DNA of 64,000 nucleotides, from positions 1-64,000 of IMG/VR virus record IMGVR_UViG_3300045135_002242; one strand, written 5' to 3'. Shown here in pieces: positions 584 to 53,067 of this stretch. This DNA comes from a virus. The position numbers were made by a program, and so were the translations under genes. Each line of letters opens with the position of its first letter. Within the stretch, counting starts at the first letter, position 1. The notes under the pieces are model-generated. The model was not told the DNA's origin and searched no databases. It saw only the letters and a program-made list of their open reading frames with translations.

Positions 584-1696
584 ATGCGTACAGAATGTAA
601 CGCCGTATTCCTGTTTATCGCAGAACTGAATGGAAGTTTTGTTCCGGGCACAGGCACTGTGGAGGACAAGATTGTGAAAGGCCAAATGGACTATATCAAA
701 TCTACTGTTCCTGAGCTGGATGTGGATGATGAAGAAGATCGTAAGGATCTTCATGAAGTTATCTGGCTTGAGCGGCTGTATGATGAGCTTGATCGTTACT
801 TTGACATCGGGAATACTGCAGAAGAAAGGTTTGCAGCTATCTCGGCAGAAGACTATCGTCAAGATAGTTTCAAATGGACAGTTCCTATCGAGCTGGACGC
901 AAGTGCGTCAATGCTTCAATACGAAGGTATCCTTCTAGGGGATAAGAGGCTAATGGAAATGACTAATGTCATCGGAAAGACTCTACAAGACCCCTGGAAG
1001 CTTGATGGTATGTCACGTACTATGCTGAAGAAAGCAGCAACACCTATGCTCTACGGGTCTGCTAGAGCTTGTCATGAGCTGTGGCAAAGCAACAATATCA
1101 GCTATACAGCAAAAGACATTGAGCTGTACTCTAAAGAACTAGCGGATGGTCCTTTCGGGCTAGCAAACTTGCTAAAAGAGTTCATCATTAATAACGCAGA
1201 TCCAAAAACAGAAATGAAAGTAAAGATCTGGAATGAGGAGTTCAAAATCAGCTGCAACCGCTACCGAAATGTGGGAGAAAAGACTAAAGCATACAAGATC
1301 TGGGATAGCGTTGATGAACAATACAATATCGTATTGCATACTGATACAAAGAAAGTACCTGATCTAAAGCAATTTAAACGTTACTTCATGACCCTACTTG
1401 TCCATAATTTAGACAGCCAAGTAGCAAATACTGTTATCGGTAAAGTAATGGAAAAGTATGATTGGGGTATTCCAATTCATGATGCGTTTATTGTCTCCCC
1501 TGCTGCTGCAGAAGACGTACGTCGTTGGTATGCTGAAGAACTAGAGAAGATCTACGAGAATCGTAAACAGATTCTAGCAGATTTCTTCAAAAGCATTGGC
1601 ATTACCTCTGCCGCAACAAAGCAATGGGAAGACCTTAAAACTAAGGTTGTACCGTTTGAAGGTGAATTCAAAGCTAGCCCAATGGCTCTTAAATAA
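584..1696 (+). CDS. N4 RNAP2-like single-subunit RNA polymerase, catalytic part (gp16-like)
   Basis: 370 aa, too short for a complete T7-type polymerase (T7 is 883 aa) but close to N4 gp16, which forms RNAP2 together with gp15. Catalytic motifs are visible in order. Motif A is ELDASASMLQYEG with the metal-binding Asp near residue 105. Motif B is SRTMLKKAATPMLYGSA with R145, K149 and Y157, the same 4- and 8-residue spacing as T7 R627/K631/Y639. A VHNLDSQVA block corresponds to the T7 His784 region, and motif C is PIHDAFIV with Asp near 300. The N-terminal partner subunit is not in the window. RNAP2 transcribes middle genes in N4. The start has GGAGG upstream, and a hairpin terminator follows the stop. 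Confidence 0.88.
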   Translation: MRTECNAVFLFIAELNGSFVPGTGTVEDKIVKGQMDYIKSTVPELDVDDEEDRKDLHEVIWLERLYDELDRYFDIGNTAEERFAAISAEDYRQDSFKWTVPIELDASASMLQYEGILLGDKRLMEMTNVIGKTLQDPWKLDGMSRTMLKKAATPMLYGSARACHELWQSNNISYTAKDIELYSKELADGPFGLANLLKEFIINNADPKTEMKVKIWNEEFKISCNRYRNVGEKTKAYKIWDSVDEQYNIVLHTDTKKVPDLKQFKRYFMTLLVHNLDSQVANTVIGKVMEKYDWGIPIHDAFIVSPAAAEDVRRWYAEELEKIYENRKQILADFFKSIGITSAATKQWEDLKTKVVPFEGEFKASPMALK

Positions 1697-7909: not shown

Positions 7910-8380
7910 ATGAAAATTGACTACCGTATCGGAGACATGTTCAAGGATGGCCACAAGTACCTTGTTCATGGGTGTAACGCTCAGGGCGTCATGGGATCAG
8001 GAGTGGCTCTTCTTGTAAAAGAAGATTACCCCTATGCTTACCTGACGTATCGTGATAAGTTTGACAGGGTAGGACTTGAGCTTGGAGAAGTGGTTCTAGC
8101 AAAGCACCCTGACGGCCTTTCAGCAGAACACCCCACCATTTTCAACTGTATCACACAGAACAAGTATAGGAAAGATAAACGAAGGTATGTAAACTATGGA
8201 GCAGTACAAAAGTGTATGCGTTACCTGAACGCCTTCTTCCTTATTGGTAACTCGATAGAGAGGGTAGCAATGCCCATGAATGGTGCGGGGCTAGGAGGAG
8301 GTGATTGGTCAATCATTTCAAGCATCATTGAAGAAGAGGCTAAAAACTTTCAACCCGTAGTTTATGACCTTACGCCATGA
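7910..8380 (+). CDS. macro domain protein (ADP-ribose binding or hydrolysing)
   Basis: 156 aa, essentially one macro domain. Visible signatures are VHGCNAQGVMGSGVALLV (ligand-binding loop with Asn-Ala-x-Gly and Gly-Ser-Gly-Val-Ala), then an FNCITQ strand, and the second loop MPMNGAGLGGGDW near residues 122-134. It is closest in pattern to the single-domain ADP-ribose-1''-phosphate phosphatase/TARG1-like group. These remove ADP-ribose from molecules or process ADP-ribose-1''-phosphate. In a phage it could reverse ADP-ribosylation by host defences; that role is inferred. GAGGAG precedes the ATG. Confidence 0.85.
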   Translation: MKIDYRIGDMFKDGHKYLVHGCNAQGVMGSGVALLVKEDYPYAYLTYRDKFDRVGLELGEVVLAKHPDGLSAEHPTIFNCITQNKYRKDKRRYVNYGAVQKCMRYLNAFFLIGNSIERVAMPMNGAGLGGGDWSIISSIIEEEAKNFQPVVYDLTP

Positions 8381-13443: not shown

Positions 13444-13479
13444 GTTAGCCATCCTGCAACTTACTGCAGGGTGGTTAAC
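13444..13479 (+). promoter_or_regulatory. 14-bp hairpin just before the HD gene
   Basis: GTTAGCCATCCTGC and GCAGGGTGGTTAAC form 14 pairs (two G-T) with an 8-nt loop. It ends 2 nt before the ATG at 13482. The only purine-rich candidate for ribosome binding (CAGGGTGG) lies in the 3' arm, so folding would hide it. It could be an end signal for phoH without a T tract, or a translation control element. Confidence 0.6.
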
Positions 13480-13481
13480 TT

Positions 13482-14177
13482 ATGCAAAATACTAAATACT
13501 CTTGGGAAGAATTTTCCCAAATCCTAATGGATAAAAATCCTCGTTCATTTTTTGATAATCTTCTAAAAAATGATCAACTACAAACTACTTTCCCTGAAAT
13601 TTACCTGCTTAAAACCGCTCTAGAATGCCGTCGTTGGCATCCTGAGGGGGATGCATATGAACACACTATGCTGGTACTCACACAGGCTGTACGGCACTCT
13701 CTGGACCTGCCTAGCACCTTTGCAGCATTAGTGCATGATTTCGGTAAAGCAGTATCCCCAAGAAAAACATTGCCTAAACATTATGGGCATGAGATTAAAG
13801 GGATACCTATTGTAGAAGCTTTTGCTGATCGTATAGGGGCACCTTTATACATTAAAAACTTAGCGGCAAAAGCAACTAGGTACCATATGTATATGCATAA
13901 ATTAGGCCAACTAAACCCAAAAACTGTTGTAAAAATGTTTGATGACATGCAAGCAATCATAAACCCAAAAACAGTAGATGTTCTATATAATGTAGGAGTT
14001 GTAGATACACGTGGGAAACTAGGGTCAGAATTGGCTCCTATTGACCATTTGTATTTGCTTTACGATTACTTTACTGCATACAAGTCAGTTACATTTCCAA
14101 AGAATTATACTTCTGAACAAGCTAAATTTACTGAACGAGTAAAAGAAGTCAAAAGGGTAAAAAATGAAAGAATTTAA
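13482..14177 (+). CDS. HD-domain phosphohydrolase, Cca-like
   Basis: 231 aa. The pattern HPEGDAYEHTMLVLTQAVRH, then FAALVHDFGKAVSP and HYGHEIKGI is that of the C-terminal HD domain of bacterial CCA-adding tRNA nucleotidyltransferases such as E. coli Cca. In E. coli that domain has 2',3'-cyclic phosphodiesterase, 2'-nucleotidase and phosphatase activity. The nucleotidyltransferase domain is absent. With the RNA ligase (19629) and phosphatase-less 5'-kinase (20984) it could provide the end-healing step of RNA repair; this is inferred. It overlaps the next gene by 14 nt. Confidence 0.82.
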   Translation: MQNTKYSWEEFSQILMDKNPRSFFDNLLKNDQLQTTFPEIYLLKTALECRRWHPEGDAYEHTMLVLTQAVRHSLDLPSTFAALVHDFGKAVSPRKTLPKHYGHEIKGIPIVEAFADRIGAPLYIKNLAAKATRYHMYMHKLGQLNPKTVVKMFDDMQAIINPKTVDVLYNVGVVDTRGKLGSELAPIDHLYLLYDYFTAYKSVTFPKNYTSEQAKFTERVKEVKRVKNERI

Positions 14178-14577
14178 AGTTAACCGCAGCTCTTGGCATT
14201 ACAAACTAAACCAACATTTTCTTAATGAAGATGGGGTTACCCAGTATAGTATGGAGCGGTTCTGGGAGCCCAAAGTCAACAACTTCTGCGCATATTGGAG
14301 AGCAACAATTGTCCGGTTGGTAGCTGCAACTACCTCGCTCTCTATCGCTATAGCAGCCGTGGTTGGTATTTCCATTCTAAGTATTCAAAATCCTTGGAAG
14401 GCTTTCAGTGTGGTTAGCGTAATCATCGCAATTCTCGCAGCATTGTTTAGCTTTTTTATGTTTTTTGTTGGGCTCGGGAAAGCAAAAAAGGTCTTCAATA
14501 ATTCCGATAGTTTGATTGTAACTAAAATTAAAACTTACAAAGCTAAAATCTGTCCTAATGTAACATATGGTAAATAA
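14164..14577 (+). CDS. membrane protein with two transmembrane segments (137 aa)
   Basis: Two hydrophobic spans, about residues 44-73 (ATIVRLVAATTSLSIAIAAV onward) and 82-105 (VVSVIIAILAALFSFFMFFV), with a short loop between them and basic flanks. The N-terminal 40 residues are soluble. Location in the inner membrane is expected. No family recognised. Confidence 0.7.
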   Translation: MKEFKVNRSSWHYKLNQHFLNEDGVTQYSMERFWEPKVNNFCAYWRATIVRLVAATTSLSIAIAAVVGISILSIQNPWKAFSVVSVIIAILAALFSFFMFFVGLGKAKKVFNNSDSLIVTKIKTYKAKICPNVTYGK

Positions 14578-14832
14578 ATGAAAATTGATATTAAAACTGC
14601 GGTAGACTTCTATGTATGCGAAACTTGTGGAATGGATTATGCTACAGGAGGCAAGGTATATGTAGACGGAAAACTAATTCTGGAAAAAGTAGCATCTGCA
14701 CATTGCTATGACGGAAGGTCGTATTCAGAAGAAGAACTACTAATTCTCGCTCTTGAAAAAATGGGTCATACATTGACTGTAGATGGTGAACCATTCCACA
14801 TTATGATGACAGATGCAAGAGAGGATTTGTGA
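14578..14832 (+). CDS. small hypothetical protein with CxxC (84 aa)
   Basis: Starts directly after the upstream TAA. A Cys pair YVCETCGMDY near residues 12-21 and a later AHCYDG may bind zinc or be redox active. It continues EEELLILALEKMGHTL. Overlaps the next gene in ATGA fashion. Function unknown. Confidence 0.65.
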   Translation: MKIDIKTAVDFYVCETCGMDYATGGKVYVDGKLILEKVASAHCYDGRSYSEEELLILALEKMGHTLTVDGEPFHIMMTDAREDL

Positions 14833-15041
14833 TGAAATCATATATCTATAGCAAGAGTGATTGGGCATATGAACTCATTGATGTGTTTCTTGGTCTATTT
14901 GACAAGGATGGTGAAGAACTAGTTGAAGAATTTCATTTGAAAGGTTTTGATGACGTGGAATGGCGAGAAGCAAAAGAATTTGCCAAAATGGTATCAGAAG
15001 CAACCAATGTCGAATACATTGGAGATAGGACAGATACATAA
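14829..15041 (+). CDS. small acidic hypothetical protein (70 aa)
   Basis: The ATG overlaps the upstream stop, and its own stop overlaps the next start. Acidic, helical C-terminal half. Not recognised. Confidence 0.6.
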   Translation: MMKSYIYSKSDWAYELIDVFLGLFDKDGEELVEEFHLKGFDDVEWREAKEFAKMVSEATNVEYIGDRTDT

Positions 15042-15214
15042 TGGCAAATGAGATAAGTAGGGTCAATCGTAAAATTAAAGCCGCGATGAAGAGGTTTATT
15101 GATAAAGAAGATGATACAGCCTTTCGTAGCATTATAACCCTAGCAAAGAAACGAGAAGATCTTTTAAAGTCTCGACCGTTCAAACCAAAGAACAAAGATA
15201 GCGATGAAAACTAA
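15041..15214 (+). CDS. small basic hypothetical protein (57 aa)
   Basis: MANEISRVNRKIKAAMKRF start, a Lys/Arg-rich helical protein. It begins at the last base of the upstream stop (TAATG) and overlaps the next gene by 11 nt, so it is translationally coupled on both sides. Possible nucleic-acid contact is suggested by charge only. Confidence 0.6.
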   Translation: MANEISRVNRKIKAAMKRFIDKEDDTAFRSIITLAKKREDLLKSRPFKPKNKDSDEN

Positions 15215-15497
15215 TTGTATAATCTGTAAGCGTGAAGTCGAAAATTGGGATGAAGCGTACCCAGAAGACGCCCTAAAAGTTCATCCTATTGGCGGAACCT
15301 CATTTCGCACATATGGGCACTATGGTTCGTCTGTGTTCGACCCAATGGATGCTTCGTATATAGAGGTGGTATTTTGTGATCCTTGCCTAACACAACATTT
15401 AGATTATACCTACAAAGGTGTAAACAAACAACGTGAAAACGAGTTGGAAAAACAACGCAAAGAGCAAGATAAATTATTGGACTGGATTTTAGGATAG
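15204..15497 (+). CDS. zinc-ribbon-like small protein (97 aa)
   Basis: Two Cys pairs, CIICKRE (residues 5-11) and VVFCDPCLTQH (about 57-67), with a conserved-looking HPIGGTSFRTYGHYGS between them; this is likely a four-Cys zinc site. The C-terminus is a charged helix. Function unknown. Confidence 0.65.
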   Translation: MKTNCIICKREVENWDEAYPEDALKVHPIGGTSFRTYGHYGSSVFDPMDASYIEVVFCDPCLTQHLDYTYKGVNKQRENELEKQRKEQDKLLDWILG

Positions 15498-15523
15498 GTA
15501 GTGAGATTAAACAAGGCTCTAAA

Positions 15524-16057
15524 ATGACTATACTCGATCATCTTCGTTCCCGCTACTTCGATACAAATCTTCACCGGGTTTGGGTTGATGAAAATGGTCG
15601 AGTGGCTGTGTTTCCTATATGGAATCTCAGTGGACAACTTATTGGATATCAGCAGTATAAACCTGACGCCAATAAGGTTATTAGTAACAACCCCCACAAA
15701 AGTCGATATTTCACTCGTTTGAAGGATAAAAAAATTGGGGTGTGGGGTTTAGAATCGTGGAACTTGTCCAACACATTATTTGTAACAGAAGGAATCTTTG
15801 ATGCTTGTAGGATTACTAACCATGGCCATAGTGCTATTTGCGTATTCGGGAATAGTGTATCAAGCAGCACGATGCGGTGGTTTGAAACCGTTCGCAAGTT
15901 TCGTCCTGTCGTTGCTGTGTGCGATGATGATGATAGTGGCCGCAAGCTTGCACGCCTGGGTCTTCTTTCTGTAACGGTTGAAGGATATAAAGACTTAGGT
16001 GATGCATCAGAAGACTATGTAAAAGAGCTTTGCAAAAAATACTCCAAACTATACTGA
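15524..16057 (+). CDS. Toprim-domain protein (DnaG-like Toprim)
   Basis: 177 aa. The Toprim motifs are LFVTEGIFDACR (catalytic Glu near residue 91) and VVAVCDDDDSGRKLARLG (Asp-x-Asp near 131-134). The N-terminal part RVAVFPIWNLSGQLIGYQQY is the region that precedes Toprim in T7 gp4-like primases. Zinc-finger and helicase domains are absent, so it is a minimal Toprim protein that might act as a partial primase or nuclease. It lies upstream of the DNA ligase gene, consistent with a replication or repair role. Confidence 0.75.
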   Translation: MTILDHLRSRYFDTNLHRVWVDENGRVAVFPIWNLSGQLIGYQQYKPDANKVISNNPHKSRYFTRLKDKKIGVWGLESWNLSNTLFVTEGIFDACRITNHGHSAICVFGNSVSSSTMRWFETVRKFRPVVAVCDDDDSGRKLARLGLLSVTVEGYKDLGDASEDYVKELCKKYSKLY

Positions 16058-16088
16058 AACTCTCAACCAAATTTTCAAAAGGGTTAAA

Positions 16089-17222
16089 ATGCAAGTAGTA
16101 ACTACTTCTCAAGCACTTTTCAAACGTGATTCTACTGGTAAAATTCGAACATGGTATTCTGAAACAGGTACCGATGGTGTCAATTGGGGATGGCGTACAA
16201 ACTCCGGCATTCATGATGGAAAAATCGTAACGTCTGACTGGAAGATCGTCGACCAAAAGAATGTCGGTAAGGCTAACGAGACGTCCCTCGAACAACAAGC
16301 AGACGCAGAAGCTCATGCTGAGCTCGTGAAAAAACGTGATCGTGGTTATTTCGATCAAATTTCTGACATCGACAAGTTTGATAAAATTAAGCCTATGCTG
16401 GCTTCAAAGTATGAAGACCACAAGTTCGATTACGTAAAGAACTACTACTTCTCTCAGCCAAAGCTTGATGGGATTCGTTGTGTTGCACGTGCTAATGGGC
16501 TATACACTCGTGCAGGCAAGCAGATCGTAGCAGCTCCTCACATTGAGAAACAGCTTAGTGCTTTGTTTTCAAAATATCCCAATTTGGTTCTTGATGGGGA
16601 ACTGTACAACCATGACCTGAAAGACGATTTCAACAAGATCACGTCTCTTGTGCGTAAGGCTAAACCAAAGCCAGAAGATCTTGTAGAGACTGCGTCCCTC
16701 GTACAATATCACGTGTATGACGTTATCCGCATGCCTGATGCCAACCAGCCATCATTCTCTGACAGGATCAATTGGATTATTCAACAGGGGTTTAAAGGCT
16801 CAGTGCAGGTTGTCAATACTAAAGCAATTATCGACTCACAGTCAGTGGATGATTTGTATGGTGGATATCTCCAAGCCGGATATGAGGGCCAGATGATTCG
16901 TGTAGACGCTCTATACCAAGAGAACAAAAGATCCAAGACGTTGATTAAACGCAAAGAGTTTTTGAGCGATGAGTTCAAGGTTGTCAGCGTCGAAGAAGGA
17001 AAGGGCAACTGGTCTGGATACATCAAGCGATTTGTCCTCGAGATGCCTGATGGTACTCAATTTGGCTCTGGTGTTCGGGGTAACCAAGATGTGTTGAAGG
17101 CGCTGTTCGAAAATAATGAAAAGCCCAGCTGGGCGACGTGTCGGTACTTCACGCCAACACCAGATGGCATTCCACGTTTCCCAGTTGTTATTGATTGGGG
17201 AACAGGTCAAAGAGAGGACTGA
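16089..17222 (+). CDS. ATP-dependent DNA ligase
   Basis: 377 aa. The nucleotidyltransferase motif I is SQPKLDGIRCVA with the adenylated Lys near residue 125, followed by TRAGKQI (motif Ia), LVLDGELYNHD (motif III), YEGQMIR (motif IV) and LIKRKEF (motif V). The C-terminal OB-fold region contains FGSGVRGNQD. The first about 90 residues are an N-terminal extension with a WGWRTNSG segment. It seals nicks in duplex DNA during replication. Confidence 0.93.
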   Translation: MQVVTTSQALFKRDSTGKIRTWYSETGTDGVNWGWRTNSGIHDGKIVTSDWKIVDQKNVGKANETSLEQQADAEAHAELVKKRDRGYFDQISDIDKFDKIKPMLASKYEDHKFDYVKNYYFSQPKLDGIRCVARANGLYTRAGKQIVAAPHIEKQLSALFSKYPNLVLDGELYNHDLKDDFNKITSLVRKAKPKPEDLVETASLVQYHVYDVIRMPDANQPSFSDRINWIIQQGFKGSVQVVNTKAIIDSQSVDDLYGGYLQAGYEGQMIRVDALYQENKRSKTLIKRKEFLSDEFKVVSVEEGKGNWSGYIKRFVLEMPDGTQFGSGVRGNQDVLKALFENNEKPSWATCRYFTPTPDGIPRFPVVIDWGTGQRED

Positions 17223-17225
17223 TAA

Positions 17226-17723
17226 ATGTCTGATAACCAAATAAGCAGCACTGGTGAAAGAACAATGAAGCTTTTTATTGATTGTGAGTTTAATGAATTT
17301 GGGGGCGACTTGCTCTCAATGGCTATCGTTTCTGAAAATGGCGATGAATTCTATGAGGTGCTCAATCTCGAGAACGATTTGGGGTATGGGCCGTGGGTTC
17401 AGAAGAATGTTCTTCCGATCCTGAACAAAGATCCAATCTCCAAAGAACTCTTCCATTCCAAGCTGTGGCACTTCATCCATCAATGGAAAGAGGTTCATAT
17501 TATTGCTGATTGGCCAGATGACATCAAATATTTCTGTGAATCTCTTATCAGAAGCCCTGGAGTATGTATGACCACCCCTCCCACACTAACCATGCAAATA
17601 GATCGCGAACTCAACACTAGCACAAGTGCGATCTTACACAATGCGCTTGAAGACGCTCGAGCCATCAAGCGTAGTTGGGAACGTCGCAAAAAAGAGATAA
17701 ATGGGTATGGAGTGGAACAATGA
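17226..17723 (+). CDS. DEDD-type 3'-5' exonuclease-like protein
   Basis: 165 aa. The first motif is LFIDCEFNEFGGDLLSMAIV (Asp-x-Glu), a middle region has ILHNALEDARAIKRSW (the Ala-x-x-Asp-Ala motif), and the length suits a single RNase H-fold exonuclease domain. It resembles phage DUF5051-type 3'-5' exoribonucleases. An internal Met at residue 14 is an alternative start. Co-directional with the ligase, 3 nt downstream. Confidence 0.75.
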   Translation: MSDNQISSTGERTMKLFIDCEFNEFGGDLLSMAIVSENGDEFYEVLNLENDLGYGPWVQKNVLPILNKDPISKELFHSKLWHFIHQWKEVHIIADWPDDIKYFCESLIRSPGVCMTTPPTLTMQIDRELNTSTSAILHNALEDARAIKRSWERRKKEINGYGVEQ

Positions 17724-17944
17724 AACTGTCCGTAACTGAGTTTGCTATGCACAAACAAAATGAGAGTCCGATCCTCGGAAAGAACCTCACCCTCATAAAA
17801 CTTGATGATTTGGGTAGTGGTTATTTTATCAAGATCGTCCAGTATGGTGATGGCGACGTCAATGAGATCCAGCTCAACTTCGAGGATATTGAGTTTGTTG
17901 TCAAAGCAATCGAAATGCTTAGGGAAGGCACTTGTAAGTGCTGA
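17720..17944 (+). CDS. small hypothetical protein (74 aa)
   Basis: The start is taken at ATG 17720, which overlaps the upstream stop (ATGA). Acidic, with DGDVNEIQLNFEDIEF and a C-terminal GTCKC. Not recognised. Confidence 0.6.
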   Translation: MKLSVTEFAMHKQNESPILGKNLTLIKLDDLGSGYFIKIVQYGDGDVNEIQLNFEDIEFVVKAIEMLREGTCKC

Positions 17945-18123
17945 AAGAACAACAATATGACGCTCTAGTTAAAGAACTATTCAGGTTGCTTGACATAACC
18001 GAAGAGACTGATGATGGTCGTGTGTTTCATCCTAATCAAATCTCTTCTTGTCGTGCACTTGATGCAGAGAAGCTAAACAAAGTTTTGATTGAACTGAAAC
18101 GTACTTTAGATGATTTTGGATAA
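17938..18123 (+). CDS. small hypothetical protein (61 aa), GTG start
   Basis: GTG 17938 follows AGGGAAGG at 9 nt spacing and overlaps the upstream stop. A helical, charged protein. Not recognised. Confidence 0.5.
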   Translation: MLKEQQYDALVKELFRLLDITEETDDGRVFHPNQISSCRALDAEKLNKVLIELKRTLDDFG

Positions 18124-18127
18124 CACA

Positions 18128-18436
18128 ATGGGTAATTGTAATTGGCCAGAAGGCACTTGTAAGTGTTGGGAGAAAGAACAAACTAAGCCTGATCCGTATG
18201 ACCGTGTTTGGATGCACTGTGAACAAGGACTGAGTTTCACCAAAGCCAGTATGTCTCGCTTTGTGATGTTCTGTCTTGGTAACAATGTTCATATCGAACA
18301 AATCCACCCTTTCAACAAAGATTTTACAGGTTGTCAAGTCTCTGCCGTAGTTCGTATTCATCCTTCGCAGTTTGAAGCGTTTGAAAAAGAGACTAAAGGC
18401 AAACTTCATAAACCACCTGTAATTAAATTGAACTGA
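18128..18436 (+). CDS. Cys-containing hypothetical protein (102 aa)
   Basis: The N-terminus has NCNWPEGTCKCW, echoing GTCKC at the end of the protein at 17720, so the two may share a short metal-binding motif. The rest is soluble. Start at ATG 18128 (ATG is four codons after an upstream alternative). Function unknown. Confidence 0.6.
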   Translation: MGNCNWPEGTCKCWEKEQTKPDPYDRVWMHCEQGLSFTKASMSRFVMFCLGNNVHIEQIHPFNKDFTGCQVSAVVRIHPSQFEAFEKETKGKLHKPPVIKLN

Positions 18437-18446
18437 GGGATATATT

Positions 18447-18776
18447 ATGGCTGGAACATACTACCCAGATAACTGGGTGATTATTAAACTCAAAGGGAGC
18501 GATCCCCACTACCGCGTCCTCGCTGGTTGGTCTGGTGGATATACTCAAGGTAGTTCGTGGCAATTGAATAGCGGGATTACGCGTGTCGAGGAAACAGAGA
18601 ATGAGTATCTGTTTTATGGTAGTAGTGGTTCCTGTTACGTTTGTGGAAAGAGCTCATACTGTTTGCGTACAAATAACGCGTATGTTTGGAATCAGCTTGA
18701 GGAACAACATGGTGACTTAGTTGAGCTGATGGATGAGAACACTGATTGGATGACAGTAGACTGGATTATAAAATGA
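18447..18776 (+). CDS. hypothetical protein (109 aa)
   Basis: Aromatic-rich, with WLNSG-like SWQLNSGITRVEE and SCYVCGKSSYCL, a possible metal site. The gene starts after a GAGGGATAT box. It overlaps the next tiny membrane ORF in an ATGA. No family assigned. Confidence 0.65.
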   Translation: MAGTYYPDNWVIIKLKGSDPHYRVLAGWSGGYTQGSSWQLNSGITRVEETENEYLFYGSSGSCYVCGKSSYCLRTNNAYVWNQLEEQHGDLVELMDENTDWMTVDWIIK

Positions 18777-18868
18777 TTAGAGCTATATCATACCTCTTGG
18801 TTTATATATCGCTGTCGTGGGCAGCGTCACTTTCGTCGCTTGGGATGTTGGCATTCTATATGCCATGA
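18773..18868 (+). CDS. 31-aa membrane peptide
   Basis: The ATG overlaps the upstream stop (ATGA) and its own stop overlaps the next ATG (ATGA). The peptide is almost entirely one transmembrane span: ISYLLVYISLSWAASL then SLGMLAFYM. It is too short for most gene finders. Coupling at both ends supports it being translated. Function unknown. Confidence 0.55.
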   Translation: MIRAISYLLVYISLSWAASLSSLGMLAFYMP

Positions 18869-18987
18869 ACCATTTACTGATTTTTCGAATCAGCGTAGCA
18901 GTCGGAGTTTTAATTGGGATGCTCTTTATCTTTGATAAAGAAAGCCAAGATTGCGCACGGATCATTGAAAAAGGATTGACAAAATGA
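18865..18987 (+). CDS. 40-aa membrane peptide
   Basis: Starts in the ATGA overlap with the previous peptide. One hydrophobic span, LLIFRISVAVGVLIGMLFIF, then a charged tail. Its stop overlaps the ATG of the gene at 18984. Together with the 31-aa peptide it could be a two-part small membrane protein or holin-like pair; this is speculation. Confidence 0.55.
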   Translation: MNHLLIFRISVAVGVLIGMLFIFDKESQDCARIIEKGLTK

Positions 18988-19625
18988 AAGTATTCATCGG
19001 ACCTTATCGTGGTAGAGTAACCAACAACCTCCACAGTCGCTACATGAACAGGAAATACCAATTTGATTGGCCAGATAAGCAAACGTACTTTGAGAGTTTC
19101 TTGGAAGGGTTCAATGATGGTATTCAGTTCATTTATGATATTACCATCAACAAAGTTCTAGAGCTGATTCAGCACGAAAACCAAAAGATTAACGTACAAA
19201 TTGATTACTGGGACACTTGGAGCATGGATCACACGTTGGCACATATCATCGTGCCAATGCTCAAACAACTAAACGAAACCAAACACGGAGCGCCTTTCGT
19301 AGACGATCAGGATGTTCCGGAAGAATTGCGCAGCACTTCCGCTCCCCCAAAAGAAAACAACTATGACGTTGATGCCAACCACTTTAAGCGCTGGGACTGG
19401 GTGCTACAGGAAATGGTCTGGGCCTTTGAACAAAAAGCACGCGATGATTGGGAAGGCGACTATTATCAGTATGAGCACTTTGAACCCAAAAACGAAGGCT
19501 CAATTAGGGACAAGCTCGGTTTACGCTTGGTGTGGGAAGACCCTGAAGGGCGTAAAGCACATCAAGAACGGATGTCCAATGGCTTCCGCCTATTCGGAAA
19601 ATACTATGAAGAATTGTGGGACTAA
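18984..19625 (+). CDS. hypothetical protein (213 aa)
   Basis: Starts by ATGA overlap. An aromatic- and His-rich soluble protein. The second half has RWDWVLQEMVWAFEQKARDD and a Lys/Glu helix. I recall similar small-to-medium phage proteins but cannot name a family. It ends 3 nt before the RNA ligase gene, so co-translation is likely. Confidence 0.65.
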   Translation: MKVFIGPYRGRVTNNLHSRYMNRKYQFDWPDKQTYFESFLEGFNDGIQFIYDITINKVLELIQHENQKINVQIDYWDTWSMDHTLAHIIVPMLKQLNETKHGAPFVDDQDVPEELRSTSAPPKENNYDVDANHFKRWDWVLQEMVWAFEQKARDDWEGDYYQYEHFEPKNEGSIRDKLGLRLVWEDPEGRKAHQERMSNGFRLFGKYYEELWD

Positions 19626-19628
19626 GCA

Positions 19629-20792
19629 ATGAACTATGAATTTCCAATTATCCGTACAATTGACGATGTGCTTCCTCACATCAAAGATCGTGAAGAATTT
19701 ATCATAGCCGAACGTGAGTTCGGTACGGTGATTAATTATCAGGTTGAAATGCCGGATACTTTTCCACCTATTAAAGTTTCTAATGGGTCTCCTAAAATGT
19801 GTAAAGAGCGTGCCTTGACTAACGCGATGCGCCGTGAGTGTCGTGGTATTATCTTCGATAAAACTAACAAGATTATGTCACGACCTTTTCATAAGTTCTT
19901 TAATATCAACCAACATATTGAAACCCAAATGCAGCAGATTGATATTACACAACCTCATAGCATTATGGAAAAAATGGATGGATCTATGATTCGCCCTATT
20001 TTTGTTAAAGGGGAACTACGCCTAGCTACTAAAATGGGTGTTACTGCTGTTTCCGAGCAGGCAGAAGAATGGTTAATACTACAAAGCGGTTACTATAAAG
20101 AATGGTTGCAAACACAACTTCAAAAAGGTATTACCCCAATCTTTGAATGGGTTAGTCCTTTGAACCAAATTGTATTGGCATATGAACAACCAGACCTCGT
20201 ATATTTGGGCAGTCGTGACAATATAACAGGTAACTACTTTAACCAAAAAACTACTCCTTTCACCTGCTGTCCTACTTATGGCAGCGTAAAAGAGGACCTA
20301 GGTGCATACGTTGCTCTCAAAAGAAAGGCAAAAGACTGTGAAGGGGTTATCATCCGCTTCAATGACGGTCATATGCTGAAAGCAAAGAATGATTGGTATG
20401 TACGCATCCATAAAGTTTTAGATAAGTGTCGATTTGACAGAAATATTATTGAGCTAATCTTAAATGAAGAACTTGATGATGTAGTTGGTATGGTACCGGT
20501 AGATGTTTCTATGCGTATGCGTAAGCTTGAAAATCTATTTTGGAAGGCTTTTAAGCAAAAAGAAAATAGACTTTACGGACTTCGAATCGCATGTCAGCAA
20601 TCTTATGGGGATGACCGAAAGCAAATTGCCCTTAAACTTGTTCCGACCCTTAAAGACAAAACAGACGCTTCTTTTATTTTTAAAATGCTAAAAGAAAAAA
20701 ATATAAGAAATCTTATGCTGGAGCATGTACAAAAAAGTGTTAACAGCAATACCAAGTGGGAAACCTGCTCAAAGTGGTTAGGTATGTCATGA
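19629..20792 (+). CDS. T4 Rnl1-like RNA ligase
   Basis: 387 aa, close to T4 RnlA (374 aa). The motif I nucleotidyl Lys lies in MEKMDGSMIRP (Lys near residue 116). The preceding ECRGIIFDKTNKIMSRPFHKFFN matches the Rnl1 family. Later motifs include FEWVSPLNQIV (motif III/IIIa), DCEGVIIRF (motif IV) and MLKAKNDWYV (motif V). It joins 5'-phosphate and 3'-OH RNA ends, as in repair of tRNAs cut by anticodon nucleases. It is next to a polynucleotide kinase and close to the tRNA cluster. Confidence 0.9.
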   Translation: MNYEFPIIRTIDDVLPHIKDREEFIIAEREFGTVINYQVEMPDTFPPIKVSNGSPKMCKERALTNAMRRECRGIIFDKTNKIMSRPFHKFFNINQHIETQMQQIDITQPHSIMEKMDGSMIRPIFVKGELRLATKMGVTAVSEQAEEWLILQSGYYKEWLQTQLQKGITPIFEWVSPLNQIVLAYEQPDLVYLGSRDNITGNYFNQKTTPFTCCPTYGSVKEDLGAYVALKRKAKDCEGVIIRFNDGHMLKAKNDWYVRIHKVLDKCRFDRNIIELILNEELDDVVGMVPVDVSMRMRKLENLFWKAFKQKENRLYGLRIACQQSYGDDRKQIALKLVPTLKDKTDASFIFKMLKEKNIRNLMLEHVQKSVNSNTKWETCSKWLGMS

Positions 20793-20980
20793 ATAATACG
20801 GCTTTTAAAACAGCTGGAAAAATACGCCCTGTATACAATGAAAACAATAAAATTAAAGGGTATTATGTAGAACGTCAAAACACAGGACCTATTTTCGTTA
20901 ATGACGTTATTAATGCCTATTATAAAAAAGGAAGTACGGTTGCCATTGACCGATGGGGCCGTCCTTGGGTAAAAGGATAA
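20789..20980 (+). CDS. small hypothetical protein (63 aa)
   Basis: The ATG at 20789 overlaps the RNA ligase stop (ATGA). A beta-rich sequence GKIRPVYNENNKIKGYYV and a C-terminal DRWGRPWVKG. It sits between ligase and kinase and is probably expressed with them. Confidence 0.6.
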   Translation: MNNTAFKTAGKIRPVYNENNKIKGYYVERQNTGPIFVNDVINAYYKKGSTVAIDRWGRPWVKG

Positions 20981-20983
20981 AAC

Positions 20984-21532
20984 ATGAACTGCTACATGAT
21001 GGTAGGACTTCCCGCACTAGGTAAGTCAACAAAGATTAAAGAACTAGAGAAGCAATATCAAGATCGTTCTGATTACTGGATTTACAGTACGGATATGTAC
21101 ATTGATGCCGTTGCTGAAGATAACGGTATTACATATAGCCAAGCTTTTGAAGACAACATCAAAGCAGCTACAGAATACAATGATAAAAATCTAAATATTG
21201 CAATTAAGCTCAAAAAAGATATTATCTGGGACCAGACCAATCTGGGTCTGACCAAACGCAAAAAAATTATTACTAAAATGAAAAATGCCGGGTACAAAGT
21301 ACACTGCATTTATATTAAAGCTCCTGATAAAACTTTTTCTAATAGTAAAGAATTGTGTGATGAATGGGCAACTAGGCTGGAATCTCGTGAAGGAAAAGTG
21401 ATTCCTACTCCGGTTATGGTTAATATGATTAAAAACCTAGTTGAACCTTCTATCCAAGAAGGCTATGATAGCTTTACTGCTTTTGATATGAATGGTAAAT
21501 TACTTTTTAATCTAGGTGCATACTATAACTAA
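20984..21532 (+). CDS. polynucleotide 5'-kinase, no 3'-phosphatase domain
   Basis: 182 aa. P-loop GLPALGKST (residues 8-16), a YSTDMYID segment where T4 Pnkp has its catalytic Asp, and IIWDQTNLGLTKRKKII, the kinase DxTN-type motif. T4 Pnkp is 301 aa with a C-terminal 3'-phosphatase (DxDGT); that half is missing here. It would phosphorylate 5'-OH RNA ends for the ligase. The missing 2',3'-phosphate removal may be supplied by the Cca-like HD protein at 13482; this is inferred. Confidence 0.85.
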   Translation: MNCYMMVGLPALGKSTKIKELEKQYQDRSDYWIYSTDMYIDAVAEDNGITYSQAFEDNIKAATEYNDKNLNIAIKLKKDIIWDQTNLGLTKRKKIITKMKNAGYKVHCIYIKAPDKTFSNSKELCDEWATRLESREGKVIPTPVMVNMIKNLVEPSIQEGYDSFTAFDMNGKLLFNLGAYYN

Positions 21533-22056: not shown

Positions 22057-22133
22057 GGTCCCTTAGCTCAACTGGATAGAGCAGCTGACTTCTAATCAGC
22101 AGGTTCAAGGTTCAAGTCCTTGAGGGATCACCA
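22057..22133 (+). tRNA. tRNA-Arg (UCU)
   Basis: 77 nt including encoded CCA. The acceptor stem GGTCCCT pairs with AGGGATC (one G-T). Anticodon stem GCTGA/TCAGC with loop CTTCTAA gives anticodon TCT (reads AGA). The T loop is TTCAAGT. AGA is frequent in the AT-rich phage genes and rare in GC-rich hosts, so the tRNA probably compensates for codon bias. Confidence 0.93.
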
Positions 22134-22143
22134 GCTTATACAT

Positions 22144-22227
22144 GGGGATGTGGTGGAACGGTAGACACGCTAGATTTAGGTTCTAGTGCCATAAGGCGTG
22201 AGAGTTCGAATCTCTCCATCCCTACCA
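22144..22227 (+). tRNA. tRNA-Leu (UAG)
   Basis: 84 nt with encoded CCA and a long variable arm, as in class II tRNAs. Acceptor GGGGATG/CATCCCT. Anticodon stem CTAGA/TCTAG, loop TTTAGGT, anticodon TAG (reads CUA). CTA Leu codons are very common in the phage's genes. Confidence 0.93.
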
Positions 22228-22377: not shown

Positions 22378-22461
22378 GCCCCCTTGGCGAAAAGGTAGAC
22401 GCGGGAGACTTAAAATCTCCTTCCTTTAGGAGTCCCGGTTCGAGTCCGGGAGGGGGCACCA
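22378..22461 (+). tRNA. tRNA-Leu (UAA)
   Basis: 84 nt with encoded CCA. Acceptor GCCCCCT/AGGGGGC is perfect. Anticodon stem GGAGA/TCTCC, loop CTTAAAA, anticodon TAA (reads UUA). Long variable arm, and T arm CCGGTTCGAGTCCGG. Confidence 0.95.
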
Positions 22462-22467
22462 AATTTT

Positions 22468-22543
22468 GGTTCTGTGGTGTAAAGGTTAGCACAAAGCGCT
22501 CATAACGCTTCAGGTCTGAGTTCAAGTCTCGGCGGAACTACCA
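22468..22543 (+). tRNA. tRNA-Met (CAU)
   Basis: 76 nt with encoded CCA. Acceptor GGTTCTG/CGGAACT (two G-T pairs). Anticodon stem AAGCG/CGCTT, loop CTCATAA, anticodon CAT. The anticodon alone cannot separate elongator Met from Ile2, where the C is modified to lysidine. Confidence 0.88.
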
Positions 22544-23242: not shown

Positions 23243-23656
23243 ATGAAATATACTATCTTTTCAATTGATAATCACACTGATTGGCACACTAGCGCAAAGT
23301 TTATGCGGTATGTAGATGAAATTACTGCTATGAATAAAGTTAAAGGCAACTTTATTCAATGCGTAGGTTCTTGGGAGAATACTATTGAGCCCTCCTTTAT
23401 TTGCAGAACTGACGACTTCCTCAACTATCTTCTTCCTAGTGGTTATTTAGATAACCAGTCATGCGTACTGCAAGTCTCTGAGTGTAATAAACAATATGCA
23501 CAACTTTTATCTATTCCTGACCTGGTACCTCATTATATTGGTTCTTTGAAATGCGTACCAAAGGAAGAAGCACTAAAACACAGCGCATGGACCTACCGTC
23601 CTGATATTAATCAATATTGGATTACTGTAAAAGAAAATCCAGATCGTTATCAATAG
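23243..23656 (+). CDS. hypothetical protein (137 aa)
   Basis: A mixed alpha/beta soluble protein (YTIFSIDNHTDWHTSAKF at the start) with five Cys. I do not recognise it. It is followed closely by the phosphoribosyltransferase-like gene. Confidence 0.6.
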   Translation: MKYTIFSIDNHTDWHTSAKFMRYVDEITAMNKVKGNFIQCVGSWENTIEPSFICRTDDFLNYLLPSGYLDNQSCVLQVSECNKQYAQLLSIPDLVPHYIGSLKCVPKEEALKHSAWTYRPDINQYWITVKENPDRYQ

Positions 23657-48744: not shown

Positions 48745-48911
48745 TTGCTAACTTACTTCAATCTATTGGTATAGTATTTACATTATTAATTATTGCATTT
48801 GTTGTAGTGATTTCTATGTATTTATCTTACATCATAGGAGTAAGCATAGTAATTATAGCTTTAATATTTATTACTTATCATATTACCTCTGCACTTAAAA
48901 AGAATAAGTAG
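48741..48911 (+). CDS. small membrane protein (56 aa), two spans
   Basis: The ATG overlaps the upstream stop. Two hydrophobic stretches (IGIVFTLLIIAFVVVISMYL and GVSIVIIALIFITYHI) and a Lys tail, a holin-like layout. Its last 17 nt overlap the 3' end of the convergent virion gene at 48895. A holin role is only a possibility. Confidence 0.62.
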   Translation: MIANLLQSIGIVFTLLIIAFVVVISMYLSYIIGVSIVIIALIFITYHITSALKKNK

Positions 48912-51900
48912 ACTCTTTTAGCAGCGCTGGTGTAATAAAGTTCATAAAGTTTTCTGCTGGGCTGTATATTGGAAATACATTTCCTGGCCCCAGAGAATCT
49001 CCATACCAGTCTTTTACTAGGAAAGATTGTTCATGGATACTAGGAAAACCTCCCAAGAAGCCAAACGCAGCAGCGCCAAAAGCGGCTTTGAGGGGGGCCC
49101 TACTACCGCTCTTTATAATAATTCTTTGAATACGCTTAACATATTTTGTGAACATCAAAATACCTACCCGGTTTAGGTACTCTTCTATTCTGCTGGACGG
49201 CTTTGCATAGTTAATAAAATCCTCAACTAGTTCGTACTCTCGTTGTGTTTTAGCCTCCTCAAGAAACTGCTTTCGCTCTGTTCCGGTTAGGCGTTGTTTA
49301 GGCTTATAGTCTTTGCGTTGTTTTTCCAACCACCAAGCCGGTAGCATACGGTGACCATCAGCCTGTTTCTGAGTAATTTTTTTCTCTAATTGATTTTGCA
49401 CATCCCTTGCCATTAAATCATTAGTTTCTAGAAACTCATTTGCAACTCTATAAAACATGGTACGTCTGGTAATAAACAAAATGTCTAAACCATCACGTAC
49501 AAGCTCAGGAGCTTTTTGCAGCTGCTCATCAATAGCACTGGTAATACGGTTAGTATCACGAGCACCCTCATTAGTAACGTCTTCTACGTTTTGGTCAAGA
49601 CCCAGTTGAACTAGTTCGTCAATGGGGCTATCTTTCATTCTACGTTTCGTAGCGCCCAGCTCCCCCTGGACCTTAACTAATTCCTGCTCTACCGCGCTTC
49701 TACGCTGGGCCGATAGTACGTCTCTACGCTTAGCCGCATTCAATTCCCTTTCTCTATTTTCCAGTTCCTGTACTCTTTTAACATCTTTGTCATAAGCCTT
49801 AATGTTACGGTAACTTTCTACGTACATTTTTATAACTGTGATTGGGTCATACCCTCTCATTGCGGCGTACACAAGATTAGCAAAAATATTACTTAACAAG
49901 ATAGTTGGCATTTTCAAAAGAATGTTAGTTTTAACAATCTTAATCATTTCCACCCACATCATTTCTGCAAATTTGATAACTTTCATCAATACAGGTGGAG
50001 TGATTTTTGCCAAGCCAGGGAAATTTGCAATACTGATATGGCTGTAGCCAAAGAATAAGTGGTGCAAGTCTGCTCTTACAGCTAAAGTCTCATCTGCCCT
50101 ATTTTGAATAAACTGTTGAAACTCTCTTGGCAGCATGTAGTACAGTTTACGCATTTCTGGGTCAGGAGCTTTAGGCCCAATAATTGTGTAATCAGTTATC
50201 CCATCCTTACCTTTCGATCCTGCATTCCAGTTTTCGTACATATCTTTTTTTAAGATATCTAGTGCTCTGTTGTTGTGCTGAGCACTCATATCCTTATCAA
50301 GGAGTGTACCAAAAGATCTAGCCATTACTTCAGATATTCTAGTATCTTGTTTTAACAACTCTTTTTTGGTAGCTTTATCCATCATGTAACGGTAATCTAC
50401 TACTTTCCCGTCTTCATTAATGACAGGCACAACACCAAATACTGTGTCAGTAAAATCGTATTCACCTTCTTCCATTTTCTTTGCACGAGCCGTAGCTTCT
50501 CTTTGGATATTAGCGATATCTCTTTTAGCTCTTTCCTGAATAATTCTACTACCAATATTTCCTGCGTCTTTGTAAGACAAATCAGTAACAGTCGTACCTT
50601 TAGATTTAATCTGGTTCAGACGTACACCGCCACGTAAACGATCTGGTCTACTAGCTGTGTCAGTAACGTACAGCGCCATAGGTTTGTTTCTTGAGTCACC
50701 TGCCCTAGGAGCTAGCTTAGCCCTAAACACAAAGCCTTGAGCTTCCATAACTGCTCTCTCTTCAAGAGGAGCTACTTCCATCATAATACTGTCATCAAAG
50801 ACTTCACGAGTATAGCCTTTTATCTTGTTAGTCTTTTTACCCTTAAATACAGTCTCGTCAGAGTTTTTCTTAAACCCTTCTACTACATCAGCAACATGCT
50901 GAACACCTTTCCAATCCTTTTCCATAAGATCAGCAACCATCATACGCTGGTCTTTGTCAGTATTCTTAAGTGCAACTAATGTCGCTAGTTCGTCAATAGC
51001 TTTAACAACGTCAGCATTAGGTTTTTTACGATGAGAGCTGTGGATACCACGTGCAATATTAAACGCATTAAGGTTTTGCTCTGGCGTACCTCTATGAGTA
51101 GCCATGTAAATACCTAAGCCTACTGCCTGGTTAGAGTGCCAGTTATAGTGTTCACCATCAATGTCTTTGAGAGCGCGTTTAGTGTCTTTAATAAAACGAT
51201 CCAACGTCTCATCATCAACTAGGAGCTTACGTAGCGTAGCGTTATCATAGATAGTCTTACGAATATCCATATATTTTGCTACTGAATCTTTACCAAACAA
51301 AGCCGCTAAGTCTGTATCTGCAATTACTGCAGTCAGAGCTTCTTCATCTAGTTTAGTAACTTCTGTAGTTTCACCAAACTCGCTAAGAGTATTCTTACGA
51401 ACTAGGTCAATCTGGTTGTTACGCAGTTTATCAATGTAACCTGACTGCAGTGCCAAGAACTCAACTACTTTTTGTGTGCTGTCTGTAGCAAACATACCAC
51501 CAATAATTTCACGCAACGCACTATCAGGTTTCATACCCCACGCAGTAGCAACCCCACCCATAGCTCTAGTGTATGCTGGGTTAACAATAGACAACCCAAT
51601 AAACTTAGCCACCCATGTAACTTTACCGTATAAAGTATCTGGAATAGGTTCTAGCTGTTTACTTACAGCATCGCCTAAAATCTTATTTTTACCTTTATCT
51701 AAAGCTCTAGCAGCCTTATCCTCTAGGCCGTTAACTACGTCAAATACAGCTGTTAAGAAGTTACCTTTTTCTGACAGGTCACGATTAGCTTTAGTATTAA
51801 TTTCTCCTAACCTGAAAGCTAGGTTGACTAAAGCGTCATGTACATTGTCGTGTTTTTGTTTTAGCGTAAAACCTTTTAGAATCTCTAATACTGTGCTAAA

Positions 51901-53067
51901 GAAATCGTTAATTCTTTCTAGTATACGACGGGTATCTTTGCCTTCTTTAATCTTTACGTATTTAAGAGCATTAGCTACTTCTGGTACTGCTAGTGCTTTA
52001 GCAATAAACTCGTAGTCTGCGTTTTTACCTGTAAAAATGTAGTTATATAACCACTTTGCCTGGGCTTCTTCAGCTACCTTATCGATAGACTCCTTAGGCA
52101 TAAAATTTTTCCAAGTAACTTGTTTACGCGCAGTCTCAATAAAATTTGATAATTGGCGTTTAAGTTTAATGGCTTCAGGTACGTTAGAATGCATAGCGGA
52201 CGCAGTCATGGAGTGAATAACTTCTTCCATGTATATAGATGCTTCTGACTGTTGGTTGCCTTTAGCACGGGGGGCGCTGTTAACAGCCATATCAATACGT
52301 CTAGCTCTAGCAACACCTTCAGAACGATCTGCATCCTCCTTAACGTATAGCTCTAGAGAGCTAAAGAACTCTGGGGACATACGGTCAATTAGGTCTAAGT
52401 AAACGTCTAGCTCTTCTTGGCTAGCTTTCTTACCACCTAGCAAGTGCAGTTTCTTAAGCATATTCTTCATATGCTCTTGGCTGCCGTGTATGTAGTCTTT
52501 ATTACGGTATTCTTCTTTCAGCTTCAGCTTTGTGTCACTACTGCCAAACACCACTTCAAGCTGTTTTGCCTGCTCTTGGTTATAGTTGTAATTATCTAGA
52601 AACTTACGCAACCCTGGTATATTAATGTAGGAACCAGGCTTTTTACCCTCAAGGCTTTTGCCATCTGAAGATAAAAGAAAAGTATAAGCTTCAGGTAACC
52701 CATCCCGTAAAAACTCAATACGAATACTGCCGTTGGCAACAAGTTTTGCGCCAAGTAAGGTGCCTTCTTTTACTTTTTTAGACGTACCATAAGTAAACTT
52801 AAAGGTAGCGCCAAATACTTCTCTAAAAGTACTTTCTAGCAACTCTTGTTTAGCAGTATTCTGTTTTTTTACAGCCCCTTGGGCCTCAATATAAGAAATG
52901 TTATTCTCTTCGGTAGCTTTCTTGAAAGCGTACAATTCCTCTAGAACTTCTTGAGCCTCAACTGTCTCAATCTCAGCTAAAGTTTTATCTTTAAGAATTT
53001 CTTCGTAGTGTTTGATAAAGTCTTCAACAAGGTTACCAAACATATTTAAACTAGTACAAGAAGACAT
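48895..53067 (-). CDS. separate C-terminal domain of the virion RNA polymerase (1390 aa)
   Basis: 1390 aa, following the vRNAP gene by a TAATG overlap. The C-terminal domain of N4 vRNAP, needed for injection, is about 1397 aa, so length and position match a separated C-terminal domain. AAAGG lies about 6 nt upstream of the ATG, so it has its own ribosome binding site. No RNA polymerase motifs. A hydrophobic helical region is near 1035-1072 (LLKMPTILLSNIFANLVYAA) and a coiled coil near 1090-1140. The C-terminus carries FGAAAFGFLGGFPS. Likely packaged in the virion and injected with the polymerase; inferred. Confidence 0.75.
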   Translation of the reverse strand: MSSCTSLNMFGNLVEDFIKHYEEILKDKTLAEIETVEAQEVLEELYAFKKATEENNISYIEAQGAVKKQNTAKQELLESTFREVFGATFKFTYGTSKKVKEGTLLGAKLVANGSIRIEFLRDGLPEAYTFLLSSDGKSLEGKKPGSYINIPGLRKFLDNYNYNQEQAKQLEVVFGSSDTKLKLKEEYRNKDYIHGSQEHMKNMLKKLHLLGGKKASQEELDVYLDLIDRMSPEFFSSLELYVKEDADRSEGVARARRIDMAVNSAPRAKGNQQSEASIYMEEVIHSMTASAMHSNVPEAIKLKRQLSNFIETARKQVTWKNFMPKESIDKVAEEAQAKWLYNYIFTGKNADYEFIAKALAVPEVANALKYVKIKEGKDTRRILERINDFFSTVLEILKGFTLKQKHDNVHDALVNLAFRLGEINTKANRDLSEKGNFLTAVFDVVNGLEDKAARALDKGKNKILGDAVSKQLEPIPDTLYGKVTWVAKFIGLSIVNPAYTRAMGGVATAWGMKPDSALREIIGGMFATDSTQKVVEFLALQSGYIDKLRNNQIDLVRKNTLSEFGETTEVTKLDEEALTAVIADTDLAALFGKDSVAKYMDIRKTIYDNATLRKLLVDDETLDRFIKDTKRALKDIDGEHYNWHSNQAVGLGIYMATHRGTPEQNLNAFNIARGIHSSHRKKPNADVVKAIDELATLVALKNTDKDQRMMVADLMEKDWKGVQHVADVVEGFKKNSDETVFKGKKTNKIKGYTREVFDDSIMMEVAPLEERAVMEAQGFVFRAKLAPRAGDSRNKPMALYVTDTASRPDRLRGGVRLNQIKSKGTTVTDLSYKDAGNIGSRIIQERAKRDIANIQREATARAKKMEEGEYDFTDTVFGVVPVINEDGKVVDYRYMMDKATKKELLKQDTRISEVMARSFGTLLDKDMSAQHNNRALDILKKDMYENWNAGSKGKDGITDYTIIGPKAPDPEMRKLYYMLPREFQQFIQNRADETLAVRADLHHLFFGYSHISIANFPGLAKITPPVLMKVIKFAEMMWVEMIKIVKTNILLKMPTILLSNIFANLVYAAMRGYDPITVIKMYVESYRNIKAYDKDVKRVQELENRERELNAAKRRDVLSAQRRSAVEQELVKVQGELGATKRRMKDSPIDELVQLGLDQNVEDVTNEGARDTNRITSAIDEQLQKAPELVRDGLDILFITRRTMFYRVANEFLETNDLMARDVQNQLEKKITQKQADGHRMLPAWWLEKQRKDYKPKQRLTGTERKQFLEEAKTQREYELVEDFINYAKPSSRIEEYLNRVGILMFTKYVKRIQRIIIKSGSRAPLKAAFGAAAFGFLGGFPSIHEQSFLVKDWYGDSLGPGNVFPIYSPAENFMNFITPALLKESTYSF

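Follow-up and report, generated by a model that had tools for sequence, protein, structure and literature searches.

Within the first 64,000 nucleotides of the 95,789-bp IMG/VR virus record IMGVR_UViG_3300045135_002242 (hereafter the window, meaning this whole stretch), which derives from a marine phage, three plus-strand genes encode a free-standing HD protein (13482–14177), an Rnl1-type RNA ligase (19629–20792) and a polynucleotide kinase (20984–21532). Our preferred reading, to which we give a probability of roughly 60%, is that their products make up a three-protein RNA end-healing-and-sealing set, with the HD protein as 3′ healer, the kinase as 5′ healer and the ligase as sealer. In this scheme, the kinase would phosphorylate the 5′-OH ends of host-cut RNA, probably tRNA, the Cca-derived HD protein would open the 2′,3′-cyclic phosphate and remove the terminal phosphate to yield a 3′-OH, and the ligase would seal the ends using ATP. 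In most relatives, kinases and ligases of this lineage come with a HAD phosphatase, for which the HD protein would substitute. Here we infer the catalytic activities, the cut-tRNA substrate and the defence or nuclease that such a set would counter.

The putative 3′-end healer, a predicted 2′,3′-cyclic phosphodiesterase/phosphatase, is 231 residues long and corresponds to the C-terminal half of E. coli-type Cca. Its match to NCBIfam PRK10885 (Cca; E = 1.5e-42) was confined to positions 177–383 of the 409 in the profile; the protein therefore begins inside the body region and is devoid of the nucleotidyltransferase (NTase) head. Matches were also obtained to PHROG 2244, 'tRNA nucleotidyltransferase' (E = 3.8e-24), and to Pfam HD (E = 1.7e-8), with the HD motif formed by His85-Asp86 (about 13734–13739). 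In common with the multifunctional Cca of E. coli type and with the NTase-HD proteins of phages, it harbors the C-terminal HD domain with its conserved metal-site residues; unlike them, it has neither the N-terminal NTase head (GGxVRD, DxD) nor most of the neck and body. Alignment with Salmonella Cca and the phage relatives revealed His53, His61, His85, Asp86, His103, His135, His139 and Asp175 to be invariant. An AlphaFold model of the protein (pLDDT 90) found its best PDB fold matches in 3WFO–3WFS, which are tRNA-processing/poly(A) polymerase entries. A separate gene for the NTase half elsewhere in the record was ruled out, PF01743 not being found in the whole 95,789 bp and tblastn of the record with the N-terminal halves of four relatives matching only the shared body piece. 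Four plus-strand tRNA genes, tRNA-Arg(TCT) (22057–22133), tRNA-Leu(TAG) (22144–22227), tRNA-Leu(TAA) (22378–22461) and tRNA-Met(CAT) (22468–22543), start 525 nt past the kinase stop codon. All four encode their CCA end, and a CCA-adding NTase is therefore not required for them; that the HD half was kept although the phage tRNA genes need no such activity speaks for a role of its own in the proposed set.

The 387-residue ligase matched Pfam RNA_lig_T4_1 (E = 6.8e-28) and PHROG 562 (E = 1.1e-67), and its best solved relative was T4 RNA ligase 1 (E ~2e-26). Since both family features are present, namely an NTase domain with a KxDG motif (EKMDG, Lys115) and an Rnl1-type profile, its sequence clearly assigns it to the Rnl1 family of T4 RnlA-like, ATP-dependent RNA ligases. 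The 182-residue kinase consists of a Pnkp-type 5′-OH polynucleotide kinase domain only, matching Pfam AAA_33 (E = 4.3e-14) and PHROG 505 polynucleotide kinase (E = 2.1e-10), and a profile built from it and its relatives retrieved Pnkp1 and T4 polynucleotide kinase as top matches in the PDB. It possesses the P-loop (GLPALGKST) and catalytic Asp of the 5′-kinase of T4-type Pnkp, the residues noted being Asp37, Asp83 and, among the lid arginines, Arg131. The second T4-type feature, a HAD 3′-phosphatase either fused or adjacent to the kinase, is absent in the window, and a PNKP-type phosphatase elsewhere was ruled out by scans of the 95,789-bp record with PF25109 (HAD_PNKP) and PF08645 (PNK3P), neither of which gave a match. 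The first-pass annotation of this DNA had placed the three genes and the tRNA cluster correctly, and its descriptions of an HD protein resembling the Cca HD domain, a kinase without a phosphatase half and an Rnl1-like ligase all stand; of the separate phosphatase that it had named as grounds for abandoning the idea, no PNKP-type candidate appeared in the record. As an observation on the ligase family, the Rnl1 gene is broken into two open reading frames (ORFs) in L225, L161/L162, L224, L221 and L010, some of them 0.7–1 kb apart and others overlapping.

The relationship between HD protein and HAD phosphatase was investigated in 85 viral records, among them the one that holds the window, which were searched for the Cca-type HD, the kinase and HAD_PNKP, Rnl1 being scored as present from PF09511 or from Rnl1 query hits plus annotation. 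Among records with a kinase-only Pnk and Rnl1, HAD_PNKP occurred in 1 of 15 that carried the HD versus 24 of 34 that did not (Fisher p = 3e-5). The figures were 1/13 versus 21/28 upon removal of near-duplicates (p = 9e-5) and 1/9 versus 14/18 in records of at least 90 kb (p = 0.003); further HD-bearing records yielded no HAD_PNKP (0/13). In the phages missing the HD, HAD_PNKP is often a separate gene near the kinase. The window kinase was nested in the starred clade of the kinase tree among the HAD-bearing phages G040, G017 and G018 (95/95), and the ligase tree agreed, placing the window ligase among HAD-bearing phages too. Such nesting is as expected for a phosphatase swap and fits a presumed substitution of the HD for the HAD enzyme along the lineage leading to the window. 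The complementary distribution is suggestive rather than lineage-proof, because only two independent pairs lie on well-supported branches and the lineage-corrected contrast is not significant on its own.

Genes of the same types are found clustered or fused in other phages. In another viral lineage (L275, L276), an AAA_33 kinase, a Cca-HD and Rnl1 all lie inside about 3.5 kb, and in these two loci as well as in L273 the start of Rnl1 is overlapped by the stop of the Cca gene. Rhizobium phage RHph_I1_18 carries Cca-HD, tRNA-His guanylyltransferase, Rnl1 and kinase genes in succession inside 4 kb. Bacillus phages 136 and PJN02 harbor a kinase-HD fusion adjoining an RNA ligase, and proteins of FADO and phage G can be aligned with these fusions, while profiles based on the window proteins detected an HD-kinase fusion in Rhodothermus phage RM378 (HD, E = 1.8e-12; kinase, E = 2e-18). 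A single 750-residue protein of L281 (804–3056) combines Cca NTase and HD domains with a domain of RlaP, an RNA-repair nucleotidyltransferase. Together with the complementary HAD distribution, the clusters and the RM378 and Bacillus fusions lend comparative support to the putative three-part set put forward in the first-pass annotation. They also bear on a different explanation, which we regard as improbable, whereby the HD protein would be a counter-signalling or nucleotide-pool phosphohydrolase acting, for instance, on 2′,3′-cNMPs or on further nucleotides used in defence, with the kinase and ligase working independently of it. Such phage roles were proposed for HD-superfamily enzymes of other families (PMC7824862). 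The window protein, however, is of the Cca type rather than HD-GYP or HD-alarmone, its fold matches are tRNA-processing enzymes, and it is with kinase, Rnl1 or RlaP that the same HD type is clustered or fused.

The repair chemistry itself is already known from other phages. In T4, whose Pnkp and Rnl1 repair tRNA, the ligase and kinase are of the same types as in the window, but 3′ ends are healed by a phosphatase domain in the same polypeptide as the kinase, a domain that the window record is without. Ruegeria phage V10, DSS3P8, RpAliso and IMG/VR contigs pair a split kinase with a stand-alone HAD_PNKP and Rnl1, without any Cca-type HD; the IMG/VR members of this group are the closest kinase and ligase relatives of the window. 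The nearest precedent for an HD healer is RM378. Blondal et al. 2005 reportedly described its 5′-polynucleotide kinase/3′-phosphatase. The 3′-phosphatase activity of this HD-containing PNKP has been shown, according to PMC1997131, and an RNA ligase was reported from the same phage. The statement of the first-pass annotation that no described phage uses the combination was thus mistaken, RM378 pairing an HD 3′-phosphatase with a Pnk kinase and possessing an RNA ligase. Its HD and kinase domains are homologous to the two window proteins but fused in one 361-residue protein, whereas the window has two genes, 6.8 kb apart, and the HD of RM378 resembles Cca less closely (PRK10885 E = 0.001, against 1.5e-42 for the window protein). 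Deinococcus DRB0098 likewise combines HD and Pnk kinase, in an operon with ligase-like and Macro-like proteins; it is, however, a fused and cellular protein, and the operon ligase is a diverged ATP-dependent ligase not described as Rnl1 (PMC1997131). A 2021 survey had already noted phosphatases of an HD-like kind in the RNA repair sets of some jumbo phages. What is unusual in the window set is an HD that is free-standing, Cca-derived and NTase-less, and this split form appears to be new.

Besides the lineage effect on the HD/HAD contrast, several other points weigh against the proposed set. Records with the HD were sampled via HD queries and those without it via kinase or ligase queries, and many are fragments. 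Barba19A carries a Cca-HD without Rnl1 or kinase, and Vibrio phage D181 has one beside a full Pnkp; Cca-HD is therefore not bound to a repair-set role. HD-motif mutants of the Deinococcus HD-kinase kept 3′-phosphatase activity, possibly that of a contaminant (PMC1997131), and PMC7824862 cites a study whose title describes the hydrolysis of 2′,3′-cAMP by HD enzymes as non-specific. End repeats are lacking from the record, which may not be complete; this lends something to the quite improbable explanation that the true 3′ healer is an unrecognised phosphatase, encoded by unassigned genes or by DNA missing from the record, while the HD protein acts on another substrate. Many genes have no Pfam match, the scan covered part of the small ORFs, and a Macro-domain gene at 7910–8380 (PF01661, E = 8.6e-6) might join 2′-phosphate chemistry (PMC7824862). 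Set against this are the absence of HAD_PNKP and PNK3P from the record and of calcineurin-like, 2H and RtcB Pfam matches among the roughly 45 proteins scanned.

The remaining points concern the HD gene itself. It lies 5.4 kb from the ligase gene, so that the two do not form one tight operon, and a 15-bp plus-strand hairpin with a 6-nt loop (13444–13479; fold z-score −5.6, with no shuffle equally stable) ends 2 nt 5′ of its start codon, its 3′ arm containing the probable ribosome-binding site; the hairpin may control translation of the gene, and its presence could mean either regulation or poor expression. Most viral-contig relatives of the HD protein (48–58% identity) are NTase-HD proteins some 405–424 residues long, and every complete relative in a wider viral-contig scan has kept NTase sequence; among about 60 viral loci in IMG/VR, the window protein is the only one without any NTase part, no further HD-only relative being clear. 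Distance, hairpin and singularity would all suit a vestige of a phage Cca left after NTase loss, outside any repair set, with a host enzyme, if any, healing the 3′ ends. We nonetheless consider this unlikely, in that the 231-residue frame runs uninterrupted from the body helix to the natural C-terminus, no invariant HD residue has been lost at an identity to relatives of about 50%, the fold is predicted with confidence and the distribution is complementary to that of the HAD phosphatase.

Candidates for further HD-only relatives were each rejected. L245 has kept part of the NTase head; the HD of L037 is a different one of 168 residues, and the DNA examined around it held neither kinase nor ligase; and the small HD ORFs of G046 and G050 belong to a different HD type. 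L008 and L028 were dismissed since the N-terminal half is a separate ORF directly upstream. The cca genes of these two loci (L008:6415–8149, L028:9275–10714) are split at a near-identical point of the NTase head, and each break is preceded by a brief additional stretch that is similar in the two.

The window phage is related to the N4-like Alteromonas phage vB_AmaP_AD45-P1 (portal, 81% identity; capsid, 85%). The latter (record G003), searched for all three genes, had no match to the window HD, ligase or kinase, which marks the three as accessory genes of the window phage. An AD45-like contig (G006) encodes a Cca-HD in a 423-residue frame, without kinase or ligase; neither of these two carries the same set. 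In both the window (48895–60362, minus strand) and AD45-P1 (90623–102305; L046), the region of the giant N4 gp50-like protein consists of two ORFs, of 2431 and 1390 residues with a TAATG stop/start overlap in the former and of 2481 and 1419 residues in the latter, where the annotation labels it a potential frameshift. Because the break is conserved in both phages, a genuine split gene rather than an error is suggested. Two similar ORFs of 370 and 377 residues, without Pfam match, lie towards opposite ends of the 95,789-bp record (window 584–1696; L044:14295–15428). A possible S-adenosylmethionine lyase of the anti-restriction type (23243–23656; PF23780, E = 9.7e-6, just below the cut-off) is encoded 1.7 kb past the kinase gene.

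To our knowledge, the cellular role of the HD domain in bacterial and phage Cca enzymes is not settled. We tentatively consider that the HD half of Cca may here have been freed from CCA addition to become a dedicated RNA 3′-end healer, displacing the HAD phosphatase in an Rnl1 set, and, by extension, that in Cca enzymes of bacteria and phages alike this domain may serve in the repair of cleaved tRNA. The natural parting of this domain from the CCA-adding domain offers a direct way to ask what its cellular role is. The case also points to phage RNA repair sets being able to exchange their 3′-healing module without giving up kinase and ligase, an insight that helps to find repair sets missed by searches for T4-like Pnkp.

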